Positions 56,112-63,232 of a DNA stretch of 64,000 bases are shown piece after piece. The stretch's first letter is position 1. Each line of letters begins with the position of its first letter. The stretch spans positions 3,882,920-3,946,919 of the forward strand of contig NZ_LR593887.1 in assembly GCF_901538355.1 (NCBI RefSeq). The letters are read 5' to 3'. The notes under the pieces are model-generated. The model saw only the letters and a program-made list of their open reading frames with translations. It did not search any database and was not told the origin of the DNA. Made by a program: the position numbers and the translations under genes. The stretch is from Tuwongella immobilis (GTDB lineage Bacteria; Planctomycetota; Planctomycetia; Gemmatales; Gemmataceae).

Positions 56112-56954
56112 TTACGCCGAGGCACCCACCTTGACGCGCACAAACTTTTGAATTTCCAACTTGGCCGATTCCAGAATTTGGCCAACCGTCTTCGACGGAT
56201 CTTTGATAAACGGCTGTTCGACCAGCACGTTTTCAGCGAACCACGTCTTCATTTGACCTTCGGCGATCTTCTCAGCCACTTGAGCAGGCTTGCCCGTTGC
56301 GGCGGCTTTCGCGCGAGCGATTTCCATTTCCTTGGCAACAATGGCTTCCGGAACTTCATCGCGGCGAGCGGAAACGGGGGTCGGAACCACCGCGGCCACG
56401 TGCATGGCAACGTCTTTCAACGTCGTTGCATCGCCACCTTCTTGGAGCACTTGCACCAGAACGCCCAGCGAGCCGTCGTGGTGAATGTACGAGCCGAACG
56501 AGCCACCCACCAGGCGGGTGAAGCGACCGGGCTTCATCTTTTCCCGAATCAGCCCGACAACGGCGGTCAGACGGTCGTTGATCGTTTCGCCGGCCACTTC
56601 CGAGGCTTGGGCCAACAGCTCATCGACGGTCTGCGGATTGTGCAGCGCGATGGACTTCGCCATTTCGTTGGCGAGGGCGATGAACTGATCGCTCTTGGCA
56701 ACTGGCGCGGTTTCGCAGAGCAATTCGATGATCCCGGCCACTTTGGTTGCCGGGTCGATGAATACGGCGACGCGACCTTCGCTCGTCTCGTTATCGATCC
56801 GTTTATCGACCACGCCTTTGTTGCGGATACGCAGGATTTCAACTGCTTTTTCCATGTCGCCTTCGGCTTCGACGAGCGCCCGTTTGCAATCCATCAGGGG
56901 CAAGCTCGTGCGCTGACGCAACGTCTGAACCGCAGTAGCTGTGATCTCGGCCAT
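56112..56954 (-). CDS. tsf: Translation elongation factor Ts
   Basis: Nucleotide exchange factor for EF-Tu. The N-terminal UBA-like part, TAVQTLRQRTSLPLMDCKRAL, and VEILRIRNKG are diagnostic. The core includes ETSEGRVAVFIDP and ELLCETAPVAKSDQF. The 280 residues are normal. The ATG at 56954 (MAEITATAV) is chosen over one 9 residues upstream because family proteins start there. rpsB precedes it, with a hairpin in the gap. Confidence 0.95.
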   Translation of the reverse strand: MAEITATAVQTLRQRTSLPLMDCKRALVEAEGDMEKAVEILRIRNKGVVDKRIDNETSEGRVAVFIDPATKVAGIIELLCETAPVAKSDQFIALANEMAKSIALHNPQTVDELLAQASEVAGETINDRLTAVVGLIREKMKPGRFTRLVGGSFGSYIHHDGSLGVLVQVLQEGGDATTLKDVAMHVAAVVPTPVSARRDEVPEAIVAKEMEIARAKAAATGKPAQVAEKIAEGQMKTWFAENVLVEQPFIKDPSKTVGQILESAKLEIQKFVRVKVGASA

Positions 56955-56981
56955 GGTCGAACAGATCTCCAAGGAATTCAC

Positions 56982-57029: not shown

Positions 57030-57920
57030 TTATTCGCTGACAGGCGATTCGGCTTCCGGAGCAGTCGGTTCTTGCGGGGCGGCAGGTTGTTGCGGCTCCA
57101 CGACTCGCGGTGCTCGGCGCGGCTGAACGGCATCCGCAGGCAATGCGGCGCGGCCTTCCAGAATCGCGTCTGCCAACTTCGCCAGGATGACTTCGATCGA
57201 GCGAATGCTATCGTCGTTCCCCGGAATCGGCAGATCGACGGGATCGGGATCGCTATCGGTATCGATCAGTGCCACGGTGGGGATGCCCATGCGTTGGGCT
57301 TCTTTCACCGCAATGTCTTCGCGCTTCGGATCGACCACAACAATGGCGTCCGGGAGCTTATTCATCTCACGGATCCCTTGAAGGTTTCGGCGAATCTTGG
57401 TCAATTCCCGATTCAGCGTCGAAATCATCTTCTTGGAATACGTGCGGATTTGCGACGTTTCCGGAGCACGCGACGAGTCGAGCTTGCCCGCTTCGGTCAT
57501 CATGCTGTTGATATAGGCCACCATATCCATTTGGCTAGAGTTCGTTCCGGCGGGCAGCCAGAGCGATTCCAGTTCTTGCAACCGCTTCAGGCGATTGCGG
57601 ATGGTGCGATAGTTCGTCAGCGTGCCACCCAGCCAGCGTTCGCTGACATAGGGCATTCCGCAACGGGTCGATTCCCGTTCGACGATTTCTTTGGCTTGCC
57701 GTTTGGTGCCCACGAACAGCACCAGGCTGTTCTTGGAGGTGATTTGCGACAGGTAGCGATAGCCACGCAACAGACCGCGGACCGTTTCGCGCAAGTCAAT
57801 GATATGAATCATGTTGCGCTTACCGTAAATATACGGGCGCATCTTTGGATTCCAACGGCTAGCGCGGTGCCCGTAATGGACACCCGCTTCCAACAATTCT
57901 TTCACTTGCACGATGGACAC
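57030..57920 (-). CDS. rpsB: 30S ribosomal protein S2
   Basis: 296 residues. S2 marks: [22 protein letters not shown]; the long helical RNKLKRL region; [23 protein letters not shown]; and the C-terminal [19 protein letters not shown] Pro/Ala/Glu-rich extension of about 45 residues follows. The GTG at 57920 has caggagg 8 bases upstream and matches S2 starts; the open frame to 58016 has no such signal. First gene of rpsB-tsf-rpsT. Confidence 0.95.
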
Positions 57921-58139
57921 GCACAGCCCTCCTGCCCCTTGGCGAGAATTCCACGCTTCTCGGATTGATGCACCAACGAACCCATCGCCCAAACAACGCC
58001 CACGGTCAATCGGCATCGATCACCGACTACCGGATGAAGGTCCAAGGCGAACTCAGCGAATATCCCGTCATTGTGGATGCCAATGAGCATTCGTCAAGGC
58101 GAGTTTTTTTCAGAAACCCCGATTCTGAGCATTCGGGCC

Positions 58140-61115
58140 TCAAGTCCGGGGCAATTCTGCCGAACGATGTCGAGAATATCCGACCATTTCGAGCTGAAAC
58201 TGCTCGGATAGTCGCCCATGGCCTTGGAGATATTTGGCGAGTACCGACAACCGCTGGCGTTCGATTTTGGACTGCTCGGAATTCAGCGGATCGATCGGAT
58301 GCTCCCAGCGAGCGCGACGGATCAATCCACCCACATCGCCGGTCAAACAAAGTTCCACACGCGGTCGCCGACACAATTCGGCCAACCATTCCAGTTTTTC
58401 GCCATACACCACCGCCCGCGCAGGGTGGGATCGGGTCAGGCTGACCATCAGGCGGTCACATTCGCAATGAATGGCGTCCTGTGGGGCCAGAATCTGCACC
58501 TGGGGTGAAACGCCGTCTGGTTCGCGCAGCCACAATTCGCGGATCAGTTGCACTTGGGCCTGATATAACGCCGAGACAACCACCCGTTGCAACGGCGCGC
58601 TTTCGGCCAAAGCCTGGCACCACTCCCGGATCGTATGCGCTTCGGTCAGATTCACAAACCCGAATGGTGGCAGTGCTTCGGCAATTCGAGCGGGGAGTTT
58701 TGCCCGCTGACGTGGATCGCTCAAATCGGTGTCTAAGCCCGAACCGCATTGCAACGGATCACGGAACGGCGCATCATCGTGCCGTGCCGCGCGTTTGGGG
58801 TGCGAATCCGCCGTTGCAGGCACCGGCTTGAACCGCACGATTCCCTTGTGTTGGCGATTCGGCAGCTCCGGCGGCGACCCCAGTTCGCCACCTTCCACCA
58901 ATTCATGAACCCAGTCGCGCAATCCTGGCAACTGTCGCACCAATGTTGCAAACTTCACAAACCGAGGGACTTCGATTCGCCATTCCCCGCACTCCCGACT
59001 GGTCTGCGGCTTGGTGGACTCATGGGTGTCGCTGAGCGCGGTCGATTCGGATTCCAGTTGGAAGGTCTGGCCTGTCTGGGGATGGAATCGTTCGCGCGCG
59101 CCATCTGGCCATTCGATGCTGTCATCCGTTTCCGGTGTGGCGTGGGGCGGCGCGGATCTGCCGATGGGGACGGTCGAGGCGGAATCGGTCGTGCATCGCC
59201 ATCCCAAGGCGGGATGCAACCAGCGGAGTTGCAACTCCTCGGCGAGGCGTCGTTTGGCATCGGCGAGTGTTCCGCCCGGTGGAAACGCGATTTCGGCCAA
59301 CTGCGGCGAATCGGGTTGAGAAACGTCGATACGCAGTTCGCATTCGGGACAATCGGCCAAGGGTTCGCATTCCAGGCGTCGTCGCTGGGTTTCGGTTAAT
59401 GACACCAGCCGTGCAATCCAGCGGCCCGCTTCGCATCTCCAGCCCAATGGTCGCAATCGCTGGCTGAGCCGTTCCAAATCGCGGTCCCAACGCCGTTCGC
59501 CGTGAGCCGATGGGATTCGGGACAGACAGATCCAGCGTTTGGCCAATCGGGAGGCGGCGAACAATTCGTTTTCTGGCATCGCCTGGCAATCGTCGAAGAT
59601 GGCCAGATCAAACGGTCGGGATGTCTCGGAGTTGCCCACCGCCGATTCCCATCCGATCACACCGGGCAAGGAGACGACTGCGGTTAATCGTGCGCGAAAT
59701 TCGTCGCGGCGGTCCGATTCCTGCTGCCAAAATTCGCAGCGTGCTTGTAACGATTCGCGCATCTGAAGCGCATCCCGCAGGCTGCTCTCCCAGAGGGCAT
59801 GATACTGGGATCGTTGTTCCGGAGTGGGATCTTCGGGAAAATCGGGGAATGCATCGAGGATGGGCCGACGGAAGATTTCTCGCTTCTGCACGAGGGTGAC
59901 TTGCGATTGCTGCAATGCGTCGATTTCAGTTTGGGCAAGTTGTTGGCGTCGCTCGATTTCGGCGACCCGGAGTCGGGATTGTTCGGCGTGCCAGTTCTCG
60001 GTGGCTTTCACTTCGGCGGCAAGGAGTTGGGCAATTGCCTCATCCAATTCGTGCAATTGTTGTCCGAGCTGTTCCAATTGATTGCGATGCGATTGCAGTT
60101 GTGGCTCTTGGCTGCCTTGTAACAATCCCTTCCAGAATGACCCGCTGGTGATGCGAAATTCTTTGCGGGCTTGTTCCTGGCTGGCGACTTGCACCTCTTG
60201 CAACCGCTGCAATTCGATTTGCTCGCAGATGGCTTGCCGATGTTGCTGGAGTTTGGCGTGCTGCTGCTGTCGCTCCTCAGATTCGGCGAGGTGGCGTTGG
60301 GACCGCTCCTGCATCGGGGCCAACCATTCCGATTCGACAGCCGCGGTGGATTGCCACTGCACAAATTCCGATTGCACCTGCGATTCGATGCTGTCCCGGT
60401 GTTGTCGAACTTGGGCAAGTCGAGCCTGGCATTCCGCGAGTGGTTCGGCGAGTTGCTCCAAGGCTTGCCACTGTGGGGCGAGTGGTTCGAGTTGTTGAAT
60501 CGTAGCGTGGATCCGAGCGAGTTCGTTCGCGCTGGCATCGCGTTCGGGTTGAAGCCATCGGAGGAATTGGGATTCGTGCAAATGGCGGGCCGATGGTGCG
60601 GAGAGGCTGTTTGGCTTTTCGATTCGTCCCAGACAACGAACGATGGAACCGAGCGTCGGAGGCGGAATCGACTGCAACCAGGCATCAATGCTGGCCGCGT
60701 TGGACATGACAATCAGCAGTCGTTTCTGATTGGCTTGCGCCAAGTCGAGCCAATGACGGATGAGCGCGGTTTTGCCAGTACCACTTTCGCCTTCAATCCA
60801 GAAGCAATCGGGGGTGGTCCACCCCCACCAGATCGCCTCGATTTGTTCGGACGTCAGCGATTGGGATTGCAGGTGGGTGAGCCATTCGGCATCGGGCGCG
60901 GGCGGGAGTGGTCTGGGGACAAGCGGCGCATGCAGGCTTGCCGACATGAACTCGCGGAGTGATTCCGCCGTGCAGAAATCAGCAGCACCTTCGGATGGCA
61001 TCATTCGAGCCGATTCCCGGTCAGTCGCTTGGGGGGATGTTGCGGTGGCGGCGTTCGCCGATCGAAGTTGCTCTGCATCGTTGGGTGCCGATTGGGTACG
61101 CAGGGTCACGAGCAA
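58140..61115 (-). CDS. SF1 helicase-like ATPase with coiled-coil insert and lost motifs
   Basis: Up to 991 residues. The first part, LTSEQIEAIWWG and GESGTGKT (109-116), matches SF1 (UPF1/AAA_11) helicases. A Gln/Glu-rich coiled coil lies at about 200-440. The Walker B region reads LAIFDDCQAMPEN where DEAS or DEAQ is expected, and the GDxxQL motif after it is replaced by SRIPSAHG. Near the C-terminus CDRLMVSLTRSHPARAV recalls motif V, but the final Arg motif is missing. ATP binding is possible; unwinding is doubtful. The start is uncertain: TTG 61115, GTG 61109 or ATG 61004. No partner gene is adjacent. Confidence 0.7.
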   Translation of the reverse strand: MLVTLRTQSAPNDAEQLRSANAATATSPQATDRESARMMPSEGAADFCTAESLREFMSASLHAPLVPRPLPPAPDAEWLTHLQSQSLTSEQIEAIWWGWTTPDCFWIEGESGTGKTALIRHWLDLAQANQKRLLIVMSNAASIDAWLQSIPPPTLGSIVRCLGRIEKPNSLSAPSARHLHESQFLRWLQPERDASANELARIHATIQQLEPLAPQWQALEQLAEPLAECQARLAQVRQHRDSIESQVQSEFVQWQSTAAVESEWLAPMQERSQRHLAESEERQQQHAKLQQHRQAICEQIELQRLQEVQVASQEQARKEFRITSGSFWKGLLQGSQEPQLQSHRNQLEQLGQQLHELDEAIAQLLAAEVKATENWHAEQSRLRVAEIERRQQLAQTEIDALQQSQVTLVQKREIFRRPILDAFPDFPEDPTPEQRSQYHALWESSLRDALQMRESLQARCEFWQQESDRRDEFRARLTAVVSLPGVIGWESAVGNSETSRPFDLAIFDDCQAMPENELFAASRLAKRWICLSRIPSAHGERRWDRDLERLSQRLRPLGWRCEAGRWIARLVSLTETQRRRLECEPLADCPECELRIDVSQPDSPQLAEIAFPPGGTLADAKRRLAEELQLRWLHPALGWRCTTDSASTVPIGRSAPPHATPETDDSIEWPDGARERFHPQTGQTFQLESESTALSDTHESTKPQTSRECGEWRIEVPRFVKFATLVRQLPGLRDWVHELVEGGELGSPPELPNRQHKGIVRFKPVPATADSHPKRAARHDDAPFRDPLQCGSGLDTDLSDPRQRAKLPARIAEALPPFGFVNLTEAHTIREWCQALAESAPLQRVVVSALYQAQVQLIRELWLREPDGVSPQVQILAPQDAIHCECDRLMVSLTRSHPARAVVYGEKLEWLAELCRRPRVELCLTGDVGGLIRRARWEHPIDPLNSEQSKIERQRLSVLAKYLQGHGRLSEQFQLEMVGYSRHRSAELPRT

Positions 61116-61330: not shown

Positions 61331-63232
61331 TCAGTTGCGAGCATCGCGGGCCAGCAATTCGTTGATCCGCTGCGCCAATCCGGCAGGGTCTTTGGGCTTG
61401 GAACCTTCCGCGATCACGGCCTGATCGTAAAGCAGGCGAGCGTAGATTTCGATCCGCGGATCATCGGTTGCCCGTTCCCAGCGTTCGACGAGCGCCAACA
61501 CCGCCGGGTGATTCGGATTCAATTCCAGAATCCGCTTGGACAGCGTGCCATCGCCCTGCCCCATTTGCTGCATCAGGCGTTCGAGATGCGCTGGCATCGC
61601 AGAGGGGTCGGCCACCAAACAGGCCGCGCTCTCCGTCATCCGCTTGGTCAGGCGAACTTCCTTCACTTCGGGGAGCAACGTCTGGAACCGCTGCAGCATC
61701 GCGGCGAATCGCGATTTCTCCTCGTCTGTCACCGTCTGATCGCCATCCGCGTGAACATCTCCGCGATCGACCGGCTTGAGCTTCTTGCCTTTGTATTCCG
61801 GCAGATTCGGCAAGAAATACTCGTCAATCACCGGATCGGTGAGCAGCAGCACATCAAACCCGCGGGCCTTGAACGATTCCAAATACGGCGACCGTTCCAG
61901 CACTTCCCGTGAATCGCCGACCAGGTAGTAAATCTCCGATTGATTCTCGGGCATTGCCTCAACGTATTGCTTGAACGTGAGATACGACCCGGCAGGAGTC
62001 TTCACCGACTGGAACAGCAACAAATCGGCGAGCTTTTCCTTGTTGTTCCAATCGCGGGCGATCCCTTCCTTGAGCATGCCGCCCAAATCGTTGTAGAAGG
62101 TCACATATTTGTCATATTCCAAATTCCGAAGGGCTTCCAACCCTTGCAGCACGTTCCGCGTCAGGTTCTTTTGCAGCCCATCGAGAATCGGATTGCTTTG
62201 CAGAATTTCCCGCGACACGTTCAACGGCAGATCCGACGAATCGACCACCCCCCGCACAAATCGCAGGTACGGCGGCAACACCGCTTCGCACGGATCCATA
62301 ATCAGCACGCGTTGAATGTACAGCTTCAACCCCGGCTTGGGTTCTTCCCAGCGATACGAATACGGCTTGCGGGCCGGAATGAACATCAGCGCTTTGAATT
62401 CCTGGCTGCCTTCCGCGGCCACGTGAATCACCCGCGCGGGGTCTTGCGTATCGTCGCTGATTTGCCGATAGAATGCGTTGTATTCGTCCGCTGTGACTTC
62501 GTTGCGATTGCGCAACCAGATGGCCTTGCGGGAGTTCAGCGATTCTTCGCTCGTGGTTTCGGTCCCATCTTCCGCCTTCGTCGTTTCATCCATCACAATC
62601 GAATGCTCGACAAAATCCGAGAATTTCCGAACCAGCGACCGCAGCGTATGTCGATCCAAGAATTCGGTGGCGTCGTCCTTCAGATGGAGGATGACATCGG
62701 TGCCACGCGCATCCTTCTCGATCGATTCGACCGTGAATTCTCCCTGGCCATCCGATTCCCAGCGAACACCTTCCTTCGAGGTGCCAGCGGGACGCGTCAC
62801 GACGGTGACTTTGTCGGCGACCATGAATGCCGAATAGAACCCAACGCCAAACTGTCCAATGAGTTCCGGCTGCCCATCCGCTTGCTTTTGCTTCAGCGAT
62901 TCCAAAAAGGCTTTGGTGCCGGAACGGGCAATCGTGCCGAGTTCTTGAATGACCGTCTCGCGGCTCATGCCCAAACCGTTATCCGAAATCGTGAGCGTTT
63001 TCGCATCCGAATTCGGGATGAGTTTGATTTTCCAATCTTTGTTATTTTCGAGCAGTTCTTCGTGCGAGAGCGAATCAAACTTGATTTTGTTGATCGCATC
63101 ACTCGCGTTGCTAATCAACTCCCGCAAGAAAATCTCGCGGTTGGAATACAGCGAGTGGGTAATCAGATGGAGCAGTTGCTTGAGTTCAGTTTTGAATTCT
63201 CGAGTTTCTCGTGCTTCTGTCGTTGGCGTCAT
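61331..63232 (-). CDS. htpG: Chaperone HtpG (Hsp90)
   Basis: 633 residues with the GHKL ATPase N-domain: REIFLRELISNASDAINKIKF, ISDNGLGMS, GTIARSGTKAF and GQFGVGFYSAFMVAD. The middle and C-terminal dimer domains follow (LPLNVSREILQSN). There is no eukaryotic MEEVD tail. Length and order are standard. It ends 215 bases before the helicase-like gene. Regulation by heat is usual in the family, but no CIRCE-type element was seen upstream. Confidence 0.96.
   Translation of the reverse strand: MTPTTEARETREFKTELKQLLHLITHSLYSNREIFLRELISNASDAINKIKFDSLSHEELLENNKDWKIKLIPNSDAKTLTISDNGLGMSRETVIQELGTIARSGTKAFLESLKQKQADGQPELIGQFGVGFYSAFMVADKVTVVTRPAGTSKEGVRWESDGQGEFTVESIEKDARGTDVILHLKDDATEFLDRHTLRSLVRKFSDFVEHSIVMDETTKAEDGTETTSEESLNSRKAIWLRNRNEVTADEYNAFYRQISDDTQDPARVIHVAAEGSQEFKALMFIPARKPYSYRWEEPKPGLKLYIQRVLIMDPCEAVLPPYLRFVRGVVDSSDLPLNVSREILQSNPILDGLQKNLTRNVLQGLEALRNLEYDKYVTFYNDLGGMLKEGIARDWNNKEKLADLLLFQSVKTPAGSYLTFKQYVEAMPENQSEIYYLVGDSREVLERSPYLESFKARGFDVLLLTDPVIDEYFLPNLPEYKGKKLKPVDRGDVHADGDQTVTDEEKSRFAAMLQRFQTLLPEVKEVRLTKRMTESAACLVADPSAMPAHLERLMQQMGQGDGTLSKRILELNPNHPAVLALVERWERATDDPRIEIYARLLYDQAVIAEGSKPKDPAGLAQRINELLARDARN

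Follow-up and report, generated by a model that had tools for sequence, protein, structure and literature searches.

What does a helicase-like protein do once the motor that defines it has begun to wear away? This question is raised by an open reading frame (ORF) on contig NZ_LR593887.1 of the planctomycete Tuwongella immobilis, within a stretch of 64,000 nucleotides that we call the window. A first-pass annotation, made from the sequence alone, had read its product as a degenerate superfamily 1 (SF1) helicase with a Gln-rich coiled-coil insert. The ORF is intact, with 991 open codons. By profile and residue alignment, its product is a divergent UPF1/IGHMBP2-type SF1 (SF1B) protein with two inserts, and it belongs to a family that is specific to Gemmatales, normally has one copy per genome and derives from a UPF1-like (SF1B) helicase. 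Gemmatales are bacteria with unusual cell architecture. The protein is spread over most of the sampled Gemmatales, and one of its inserts, the middle domain, has no Pfam family or clear solved fold in these searches. The explanation that we favor, tentatively and at somewhat less than even odds, is that the first RecA domain (RecA1), the coil and the middle domain form a scaffold to which the UPF1-like motor is a dispensable ATP switch, and that the T. immobilis copy is a slow ATPase or an ATP-gated clamp.

Single-sequence searches with the T. immobilis protein were weak (Pfam AAA_16, 2.4e-4; NCBIfam IGHMBP2 family, 2.8e-6; best PADLOC match, 2.9e-3). A profile of 22 members searched against the PDB matched IGHMBP2 (3.6e-36) and UPF1 (1e-30), followed by DNA2, SETX, Sen1 and Aquarius. 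The same UPF1-type enzymes were the top Foldseek matches of a full-length model (best E 2.0e-3). The Q motif, Walker A and motifs Ia, II, V and VI have the same order as in the SF1B enzymes UPF1, IGHMBP2, SETX and DNA2 (PDB 4b3g, 2xzo, 8ftm, 5ean), and a residue alignment of the family profile to UPF1/IGHMBP2 placed motifs I, Ia, II, IIIa, V and VI in order. The VRQLP of the T. immobilis copy stands in the YRMHP register. Its motif IV Arg is present, in a register whose profile match to UPF1 is weak alone (3.0 bits). The copy thus has the two RecA domains with motifs Q, I, Ia, IV (in that weak register), V and VI that mark a UPF1-like SF1B protein, and it lacks the DExx with a catalytic Glu and the GDxxQ, having DDCQ and no motif III.

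Several of these details had been read correctly at first pass. The Walker A motif GESGTGKT is preceded by Q91 of the Q motif, and its residues G109, G112, G114 and K115 are identical in all 24 motor-bearing members with that region. Motif II is D508-D509-C510-Q511, in which the catalytic Glu has become Asp (D509). Position 1 of this motif is E in 19, D in 7 and Q in 1 of the 27 motor-bearing members, and position 2 is D in 14, E in 11 and Q in 2. Because motif II drifts between D and E across the family, DDCQ is not private to the T. immobilis copy. Motif III (GDxxQ) was not found in this copy, where ICLSRIPS is aligned with the LVGDHCQL of UPF1; the family consensus at the site is VLVGxP. 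The last Arg motif had been reported as missing, and this was an error. Motif VI is LCRRPR, in register with the LTRAR of relatives and of UPF1/IGHMBP2; its Arg is R917, and an Arg is found here in 23 of the 27 motor-bearing members. An alignment with complete motifs II, III and VI had been named as evidence that would speak against a degenerate helicase; alignment recovered motif VI, motif V and an acidic motif II, and did not recover motif III. The copy keeps Walker A, an acidic motif II and Arg at motifs IV, V and VI; it should therefore bind ATP and may hydrolyze it to some extent. With D509 in place of Glu and motif III absent, slow hydrolysis or ATP-gated clamping would be likelier than processive unwinding.

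The Gemmatales family differs from UPF1, IGHMBP2, SETX and DNA2 in its two inserts, a coil within RecA1 and a middle domain between motifs IIIa and IV, as well as in its lack of motif III, its scrambled D/E in motif II and the absence of both the P-loop and the second RecA domain (RecA2) from 33 of 61 tree rows. The coil after the first ATPase part was already noted at first pass. AlphaFold2 (AF2) models it as helices at residues 173-209, 212-257, 263-318, 337-422, 432-468 and 470-480, with ten-residue means of the predicted local distance difference test (pLDDT) of 69-91 over residues 191-470. The full-length model is poor (mean pLDDT 57.5, predicted TM-score (pTM) 0.33). Gln makes up 17.9% of residues 190-430 in the T. 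immobilis copy vs. 5.9% elsewhere, and the medians across 60 rows are 7.0% in the coil vs. 3.7% elsewhere. Its coil Gln content is the second highest of the 60 rows, below one relative with 21.0% (L034) and above another with 16.2% (L091).

The middle domain (residues ~555-722) was overlooked in the first-pass annotation. It is a beta-alpha region of ~170 aa between RecA1 and RecA2, flanked by SLFERL-like and YRMHP-like segments. All 62 members share E584 and F611, 61 of 62 have D588, and R718 is found in all 60 with a residue there (conservation counts omit L089, L093 and the first piece of L082, and L054 is in neither the motor-bearing nor the truncated set). All six invariant columns of the 22-member alignment fall inside this domain. 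We had considered it the best conserved part of the protein and dropped the idea, as averages in motor-bearing members do not show it. The middle domain of one relative (L130), modeled by AF2 from a four-row alignment, has ten strands and four helices (pLDDT 81.4, pTM 0.80), and the domain is predicted to fold on its own. It perhaps consists of two similar halves, which align weakly in a profile alignment (73 columns, probability 43.5%, P 2.4e-4). Pfam gave only chance-level or motif II matches to the domain at E<=10, and a PDB sequence-profile search matched the motif II part only. Foldseek of the model against the PDB found no clear fold (best E 0.016), and a second look with VIA-align gave at best a Z of 5.5 over 65 residues. 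Among viral folds, the model of L130 (9642-10193) is best matched by DUF2283 proteins of pandoraviruses (E 8.4e-4 and 1.4e-3, TM-scores 0.24-0.30). Homology to the first of them, the best match in BFVD (E 8.4e-4, TM-score 0.24), was not accepted.

Relatives were found in Gemmataceae and a sister family, with 19-26% identity to the T. immobilis protein in the 22-row alignment. The middle domain was matched at E<=1e-12 in 74 of 102 Gemmatales genomes (60 of the 71 of good quality; several assemblies are fragmented), once per positive genome except in G059 and G086. In a phylum sample of 392 genomes, the middle-domain profile gave 49 matches at E<=0.001, spread over 44 genomes. Apart from the one in the T. 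immobilis genome, all of them (48) end by position 91 of 245, in the motif II/III part, and in these searches the domain is restricted to Gemmatales. A protein search within its own genome returned the T. immobilis protein as the sole match; the same genome also encodes a UPF1/IGHMBP2-like helicase in a 721-aa frame. A single-protein scan of genome contigs gave no matches and an alignment-based search (A4) gave 4 loci. No description of the family was found by a word search of open full texts. The T. immobilis copy has the longest branch (2.72) of the middle-domain tree and its position there is unsure; the bootstrap of this tree, which leaves out L054, L058, L089, L093 and the first piece of L082, had not settled. 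In a tree of shared motor columns it groups with L032, L033 and L034 (95/84). A locus in another genome, L089 (1015-6619, + strand), encodes a 1441-aa UPF1-like helicase with a coil and no middle domain. Starred branches set it apart from both the family and other helicases, and none of the other rows tested is a closer outside relative. One very divergent member of 1458 aa (L143, 1119-5495, + strand) has coil, middle-domain and RecA2 matches, with no Walker A aligned.

Many relatives have lost half of the motor and kept the rest. RecA2 is present in 26 and absent in 35 of the 61 tree rows, and the RecA1 remnant, coil and middle domain are kept in every form. Every RecA2-bearing row in which Walker A is visible has it intact (23 rows; 3 are cut off), as do 2 of the 35 RecA2-less rows (L063 and L064). 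The fewest changes of RecA2 presence on the best tree are 6. Twenty-nine of the 35 RecA2-less rows form one starred clade (99/97), and within one genus (g17) the RecA2-less L063 and L064 adjoin the RecA2-bearing congeners L040 and L056 on starred branches. This clade and the separate case of L063 and L064 give good support for two losses, and further ones are likely. The tree is unrooted, and the changes are read as losses because both sister-family loci (L039 and L042) have the motor and a partner gene described below. An arrangement in which all truncated relatives form one clade, as one old paralogue would, was rejected (p-AU 3.5e-7; both forms also share a transglutaminase neighbor).

Split genes or assembly breaks as the source of the truncated form were ruled out by a search for family RecA2 in nine truncated-form genomes among the 12 searched. 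The three motor-bearing genomes gave strong matches (G000, G023, G016). Three truncated-form genomes had none (G082, G083, G001) and six had matches only at the level of ordinary helicases (G063, G064, G031, G089, G075, G065; best E 2.3e-19 to 1.9e-14); five of the nine are single-contig, and in four of the six 150 of 153-174 candidates were scored. The partner gene of L063 overlaps the helicase stop by 4 nt, which also counts against a split gene. The ratio of nonsynonymous to synonymous substitution rates (dN/dS) is 0.15-0.31 in 8 informative RecA2-less pairs, two of which share L068, with L083/L084 at a dS of 0 and L075/L077 near saturation. Four intact pairs gave 0.22-0.28, and two of these pairs are close to saturation.

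Conserved neighbors, which the first-pass annotation had suggested looking for, exist in other Gemmatales, and neither adjoins the T. immobilis copy. In 37 of 65 loci (a set that includes the T. immobilis locus, L089 and L093), a transglutaminase gene of the same orientation is found upstream, at a distance of 61-1820 nt; some of the other 28 had little or no upstream sequence. Because this neighbor stands in the same place in both forms, the motor appears to have decayed in place. A gene for a winged helix-turn-helix (wHTH) protein of ~340 aa, partner B, lies directly downstream in 18 of the 65 loci (17 of the family and L089), with a 4-nt overlap as cut in 9. A wHTH gene is also found beside both sister-family loci read. 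Partner B was matched in 32 of 95 Gemmataceae genomes at E<=0.001, in 25 of those at E<=1e-20, and the strong match is on a contig other than that of the helicase in seven (G004, G012, G026, G095, G096, G097, G099). In a phylum sample that has no positive control, none of 294 genomes matched at E<=1e-6. Of the tree rows with RecA2, 19 of 26 come from genomes that encode the partner, vs. 4 of 35 of those without RecA2 (labels set by hand; G090, whose copy is beside L089, scored as lacking it). The best 60 matches of a PDB profile search with the partner are nearly all wHTH proteins. Five partner proteins scanned gave wHTH matches or none, plus CobW_C (0.002) in that of L042; no nuclease was matched among them, and their alignment has no conserved nuclease-like residue set. 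The T. immobilis genome has no strong partner match, only a partial wHTH hit (3.1e-6), and its transglutaminase gene is 520 kb away from the helicase gene. We infer that this copy left the usual locus and lost its partner. By eye, the transglutaminase gene of this genome faces a convergent 460-aa ORF with a wHTH-like start, at the site where relatives have the helicase (L136, 8542-11593).

Since half of the motor was lost and the rest was kept in many relatives, the motor appears to be optional, and the conserved work seems to fall to the other parts. In the scaffold explanation, binding of ATP would make the two RecA domains close on single-stranded RNA or DNA, a partner (the wHTH protein in genomes that have one) would dock on the coil as on an arm, and the middle domain with the RecA1 remnant would be the core of a binding module able to run without ATP. 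The T. immobilis copy may then be a step on a path of motor loss that sister lineages completed. Support comes from the relatives without P-loop and RecA2, many of them beside the transglutaminase gene, which are under purifying selection in the pairs measured. The clamp, sensor or scaffold of the first-pass annotation fits in part, mostly through these relatives; its premise of a missing motif VI does not hold. The contribution of the ATPase to a UPF1-like protein is directly testable here because natural sets with and without RecA2 exist, even within one genus, and the same sets make it testable which part does the conserved work.

Several observations weigh against this explanation. Motif V and VI arginines survive in the T. 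immobilis copy and are compatible with real translocation. RecA2 has a dN/dS of 0.16-0.26 in four pairs; being under purifying selection, the motor does something where it is present. The mean share of the commonest residue in motor-bearing members is 0.49 in the middle domain vs. 0.59 in the first part of RecA1 and 0.53 in RecA2; the RecA1 remnant and the middle domain of truncated members do not differ in this measure (0.56 each). Partner and motor are imperfectly linked, with partner B but no RecA2 in 4 rows and RecA2 but no partner B in 7, and independent pairs are few. The full-length model does not give the relative placement of coil, middle domain and motor. The long branch of the T. 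immobilis copy also means that its function may differ from that of the family. A rival explanation is an active UPF1-like translocase, in which the odd motifs II and III would be tolerated variants and the inserts would only tune substrate choice. Walker A, the arginines of motifs IV, V and VI and an acidic motif II pair are all present, Walker A is kept by every motor-bearing member where it can be seen, and RecA2 is both constrained in sequence and on average better conserved than the middle domain. We nevertheless consider a translocase rather unlikely, given the absence of motif III, the shuffling of D and E in motif II across the family and the retention of the gene in the 35 rows that have lost RecA2.

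Known systems offer partial parallels. Deinococcus PriA (PMC4504706) and yeast Utp25 (PMC9539457) are described as pseudohelicases, helicase-derived proteins kept after loss of catalytic motifs. Truncated Gemmatales relatives are likewise retained without catalytic motifs; they differ in that RecA2 is wholly gone, more than once, and a RecA1 remnant, coil and middle domain stay. The T. immobilis copy is not a pseudohelicase in the sense of a gene kept after loss of Walker A, which is gone in 33 of its 35 RecA2-less relatives. Another parallel is CnuH of Type II/III CoCoNuTs and relatives, a UPF1-like helicase that has a coiled-coil helical insertion after Walker A, with the downstream wHTH protein CnuE placed on this insertion by a multimer model (PMC11090510). 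The CnuE wHTH is fused to an effector, usually a nuclease (PMC11090510). The AF2 helices of the T. immobilis copy also follow Walker A, and a wHTH gene is downstream in the 18 loci mentioned. Unlike CnuH-CnuE as described there, no nuclease was recognized in the Gemmatales partners scanned and the T. immobilis copy has no partner; the family is single-copy across the order and shows motor loss, and no middle domain figures in the passages on CnuH.

The protein could on these grounds be what is left of a helicase-effector module for phage defense, of the CnuH-CnuE or a Mokosh-like type. The helicase would recognize foreign RNA or DNA, the wHTH partner would act as the effector or bring one in, and T. 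immobilis would have only the helicase left. Besides the arrangement shared with CnuH and CnuE (PMC11090510), L089 lacks the middle domain but combines a coil with a homologue of partner B. PADLOC models of Mokosh type I also match: the MkoA models in 16 and 17 of 22 members, and the MkoB models in the N-terminal part of four of five partners at E<=0.01 (best L089, 6.8e-12; L060, 2.4e-8; L031, none). Yet the five partners scanned have no phospholipase D (PLD) match, and the MkoA matches are unspecific. The T. immobilis protein has no MkoA match at E<=1e-3 nor at E<=1, while the 721-aa helicase of its genome has one of 2.8e-97. Its genome has a partial MkoB match elsewhere (2.2e-9), with a model that matches in 14 of 14 control genomes. 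The family is not assigned to Mokosh because the MkoA model matches ordinary helicases better. With no nuclease recognized in the five partners scanned, and with a single copy across the order, often at one locus, unlike mobile defense genes, we judge a defense remnant unlikely. A more far-reaching history is possible, if doubtful: Gemmatales may have captured a defense-type helicase-wHTH pair, added the middle domain, fixed the pair as a single-copy component of the cell and lost motor and partner independently in several lineages, ending in an ATP-independent scaffold, with T. immobilis carrying a half-decayed motor.

Finally, the T. immobilis copy may be a decaying relic on its way to loss. 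Its long branch, the lack of a strong partner match and the 520 kb that separate it from the transglutaminase gene would fit such a fate. No congener of the species was found for a dN/dS estimate. All 991 codons are open, however, and Walker A and the most conserved middle-domain residues are kept, and we regard a relic as very unlikely.

Table 1. Features of the T. immobilis gene and its surroundings (window positions), and loci of a second Gemmataceae helicase (positions within each locus).
Feature	Position	Strand	Remark or basis
Whole ORF	58140..61115	-	991 aa; TTG at 61115 as listed, GTG at 61109 likelier start
RecA1, first part (residues 85-180): Q motif, Walker A, motif Ia	60576..60863	-	family profile aligned to IGHMBP2 (4b3g) and UPF1
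Walker A GESGTGKT (residues 109-116, K115)	60768..60791	-	sequence and family alignment
Coiled-coil insert in RecA1 (residues 190-480), Gln-rich here	59676..60548	-	AF2 helices and composition
Motif II region DLAIFDDCQ (residues 503-511)	59583..59609	-	family alignment and profile alignment
Middle domain (residues ~555-722), insert between motifs IIIa and IV	58950..59453	-	alignments, AF2, profile searches
RecA2 (residues 723-960)	58236..58949	-	profile alignment, structure search, RecA2 search
Motif V CECDRLMVSLTRSH (residues 884-897, R895)	58425..58466	-	family and profile alignment
Motif VI LAELCRRPRVELCLTGD (residues 911-927, R917)	58335..58385	-	family and profile alignment
htpG	61331-63232	-	flanks ORF; identity read from translation, no search
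rpsB/tsf	57030-58016, 56112-56981	-	flank ORF; identity read from translations, no search
Locus of second helicase, L139	2610-7424	-	
Locus of second helicase, L140	3575-8375		
Locus of second helicase, L141	3164-7648		
Locus of second helicase, L142	2529-7313		

Translation probably begins at the GTG two codons downstream of the listed TTG, because the resulting N-terminus MTLRTQSAP resembles the MTLRQSQAP of a relative (L037). Many members (L031-L054) start with M[ST]xRER or a similar sequence, which forms a short conserved N-terminus; members were cut from the first ATG, GTG or TTG after a stop, and some N-termini are overlong. Gemmataceae also have a second, distinct UPF1-like helicase (~1140-1240 aa as cut) without coil or middle domain, with a ~360-aa wHTH gene directly downstream. 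Both inserts are absent from the helicases of L139-L142 by profile spacing, and their four wHTH partners have no PADLOC model match at E<=0.01. The helicase of L139 matches MkoA at 1.7e-111.

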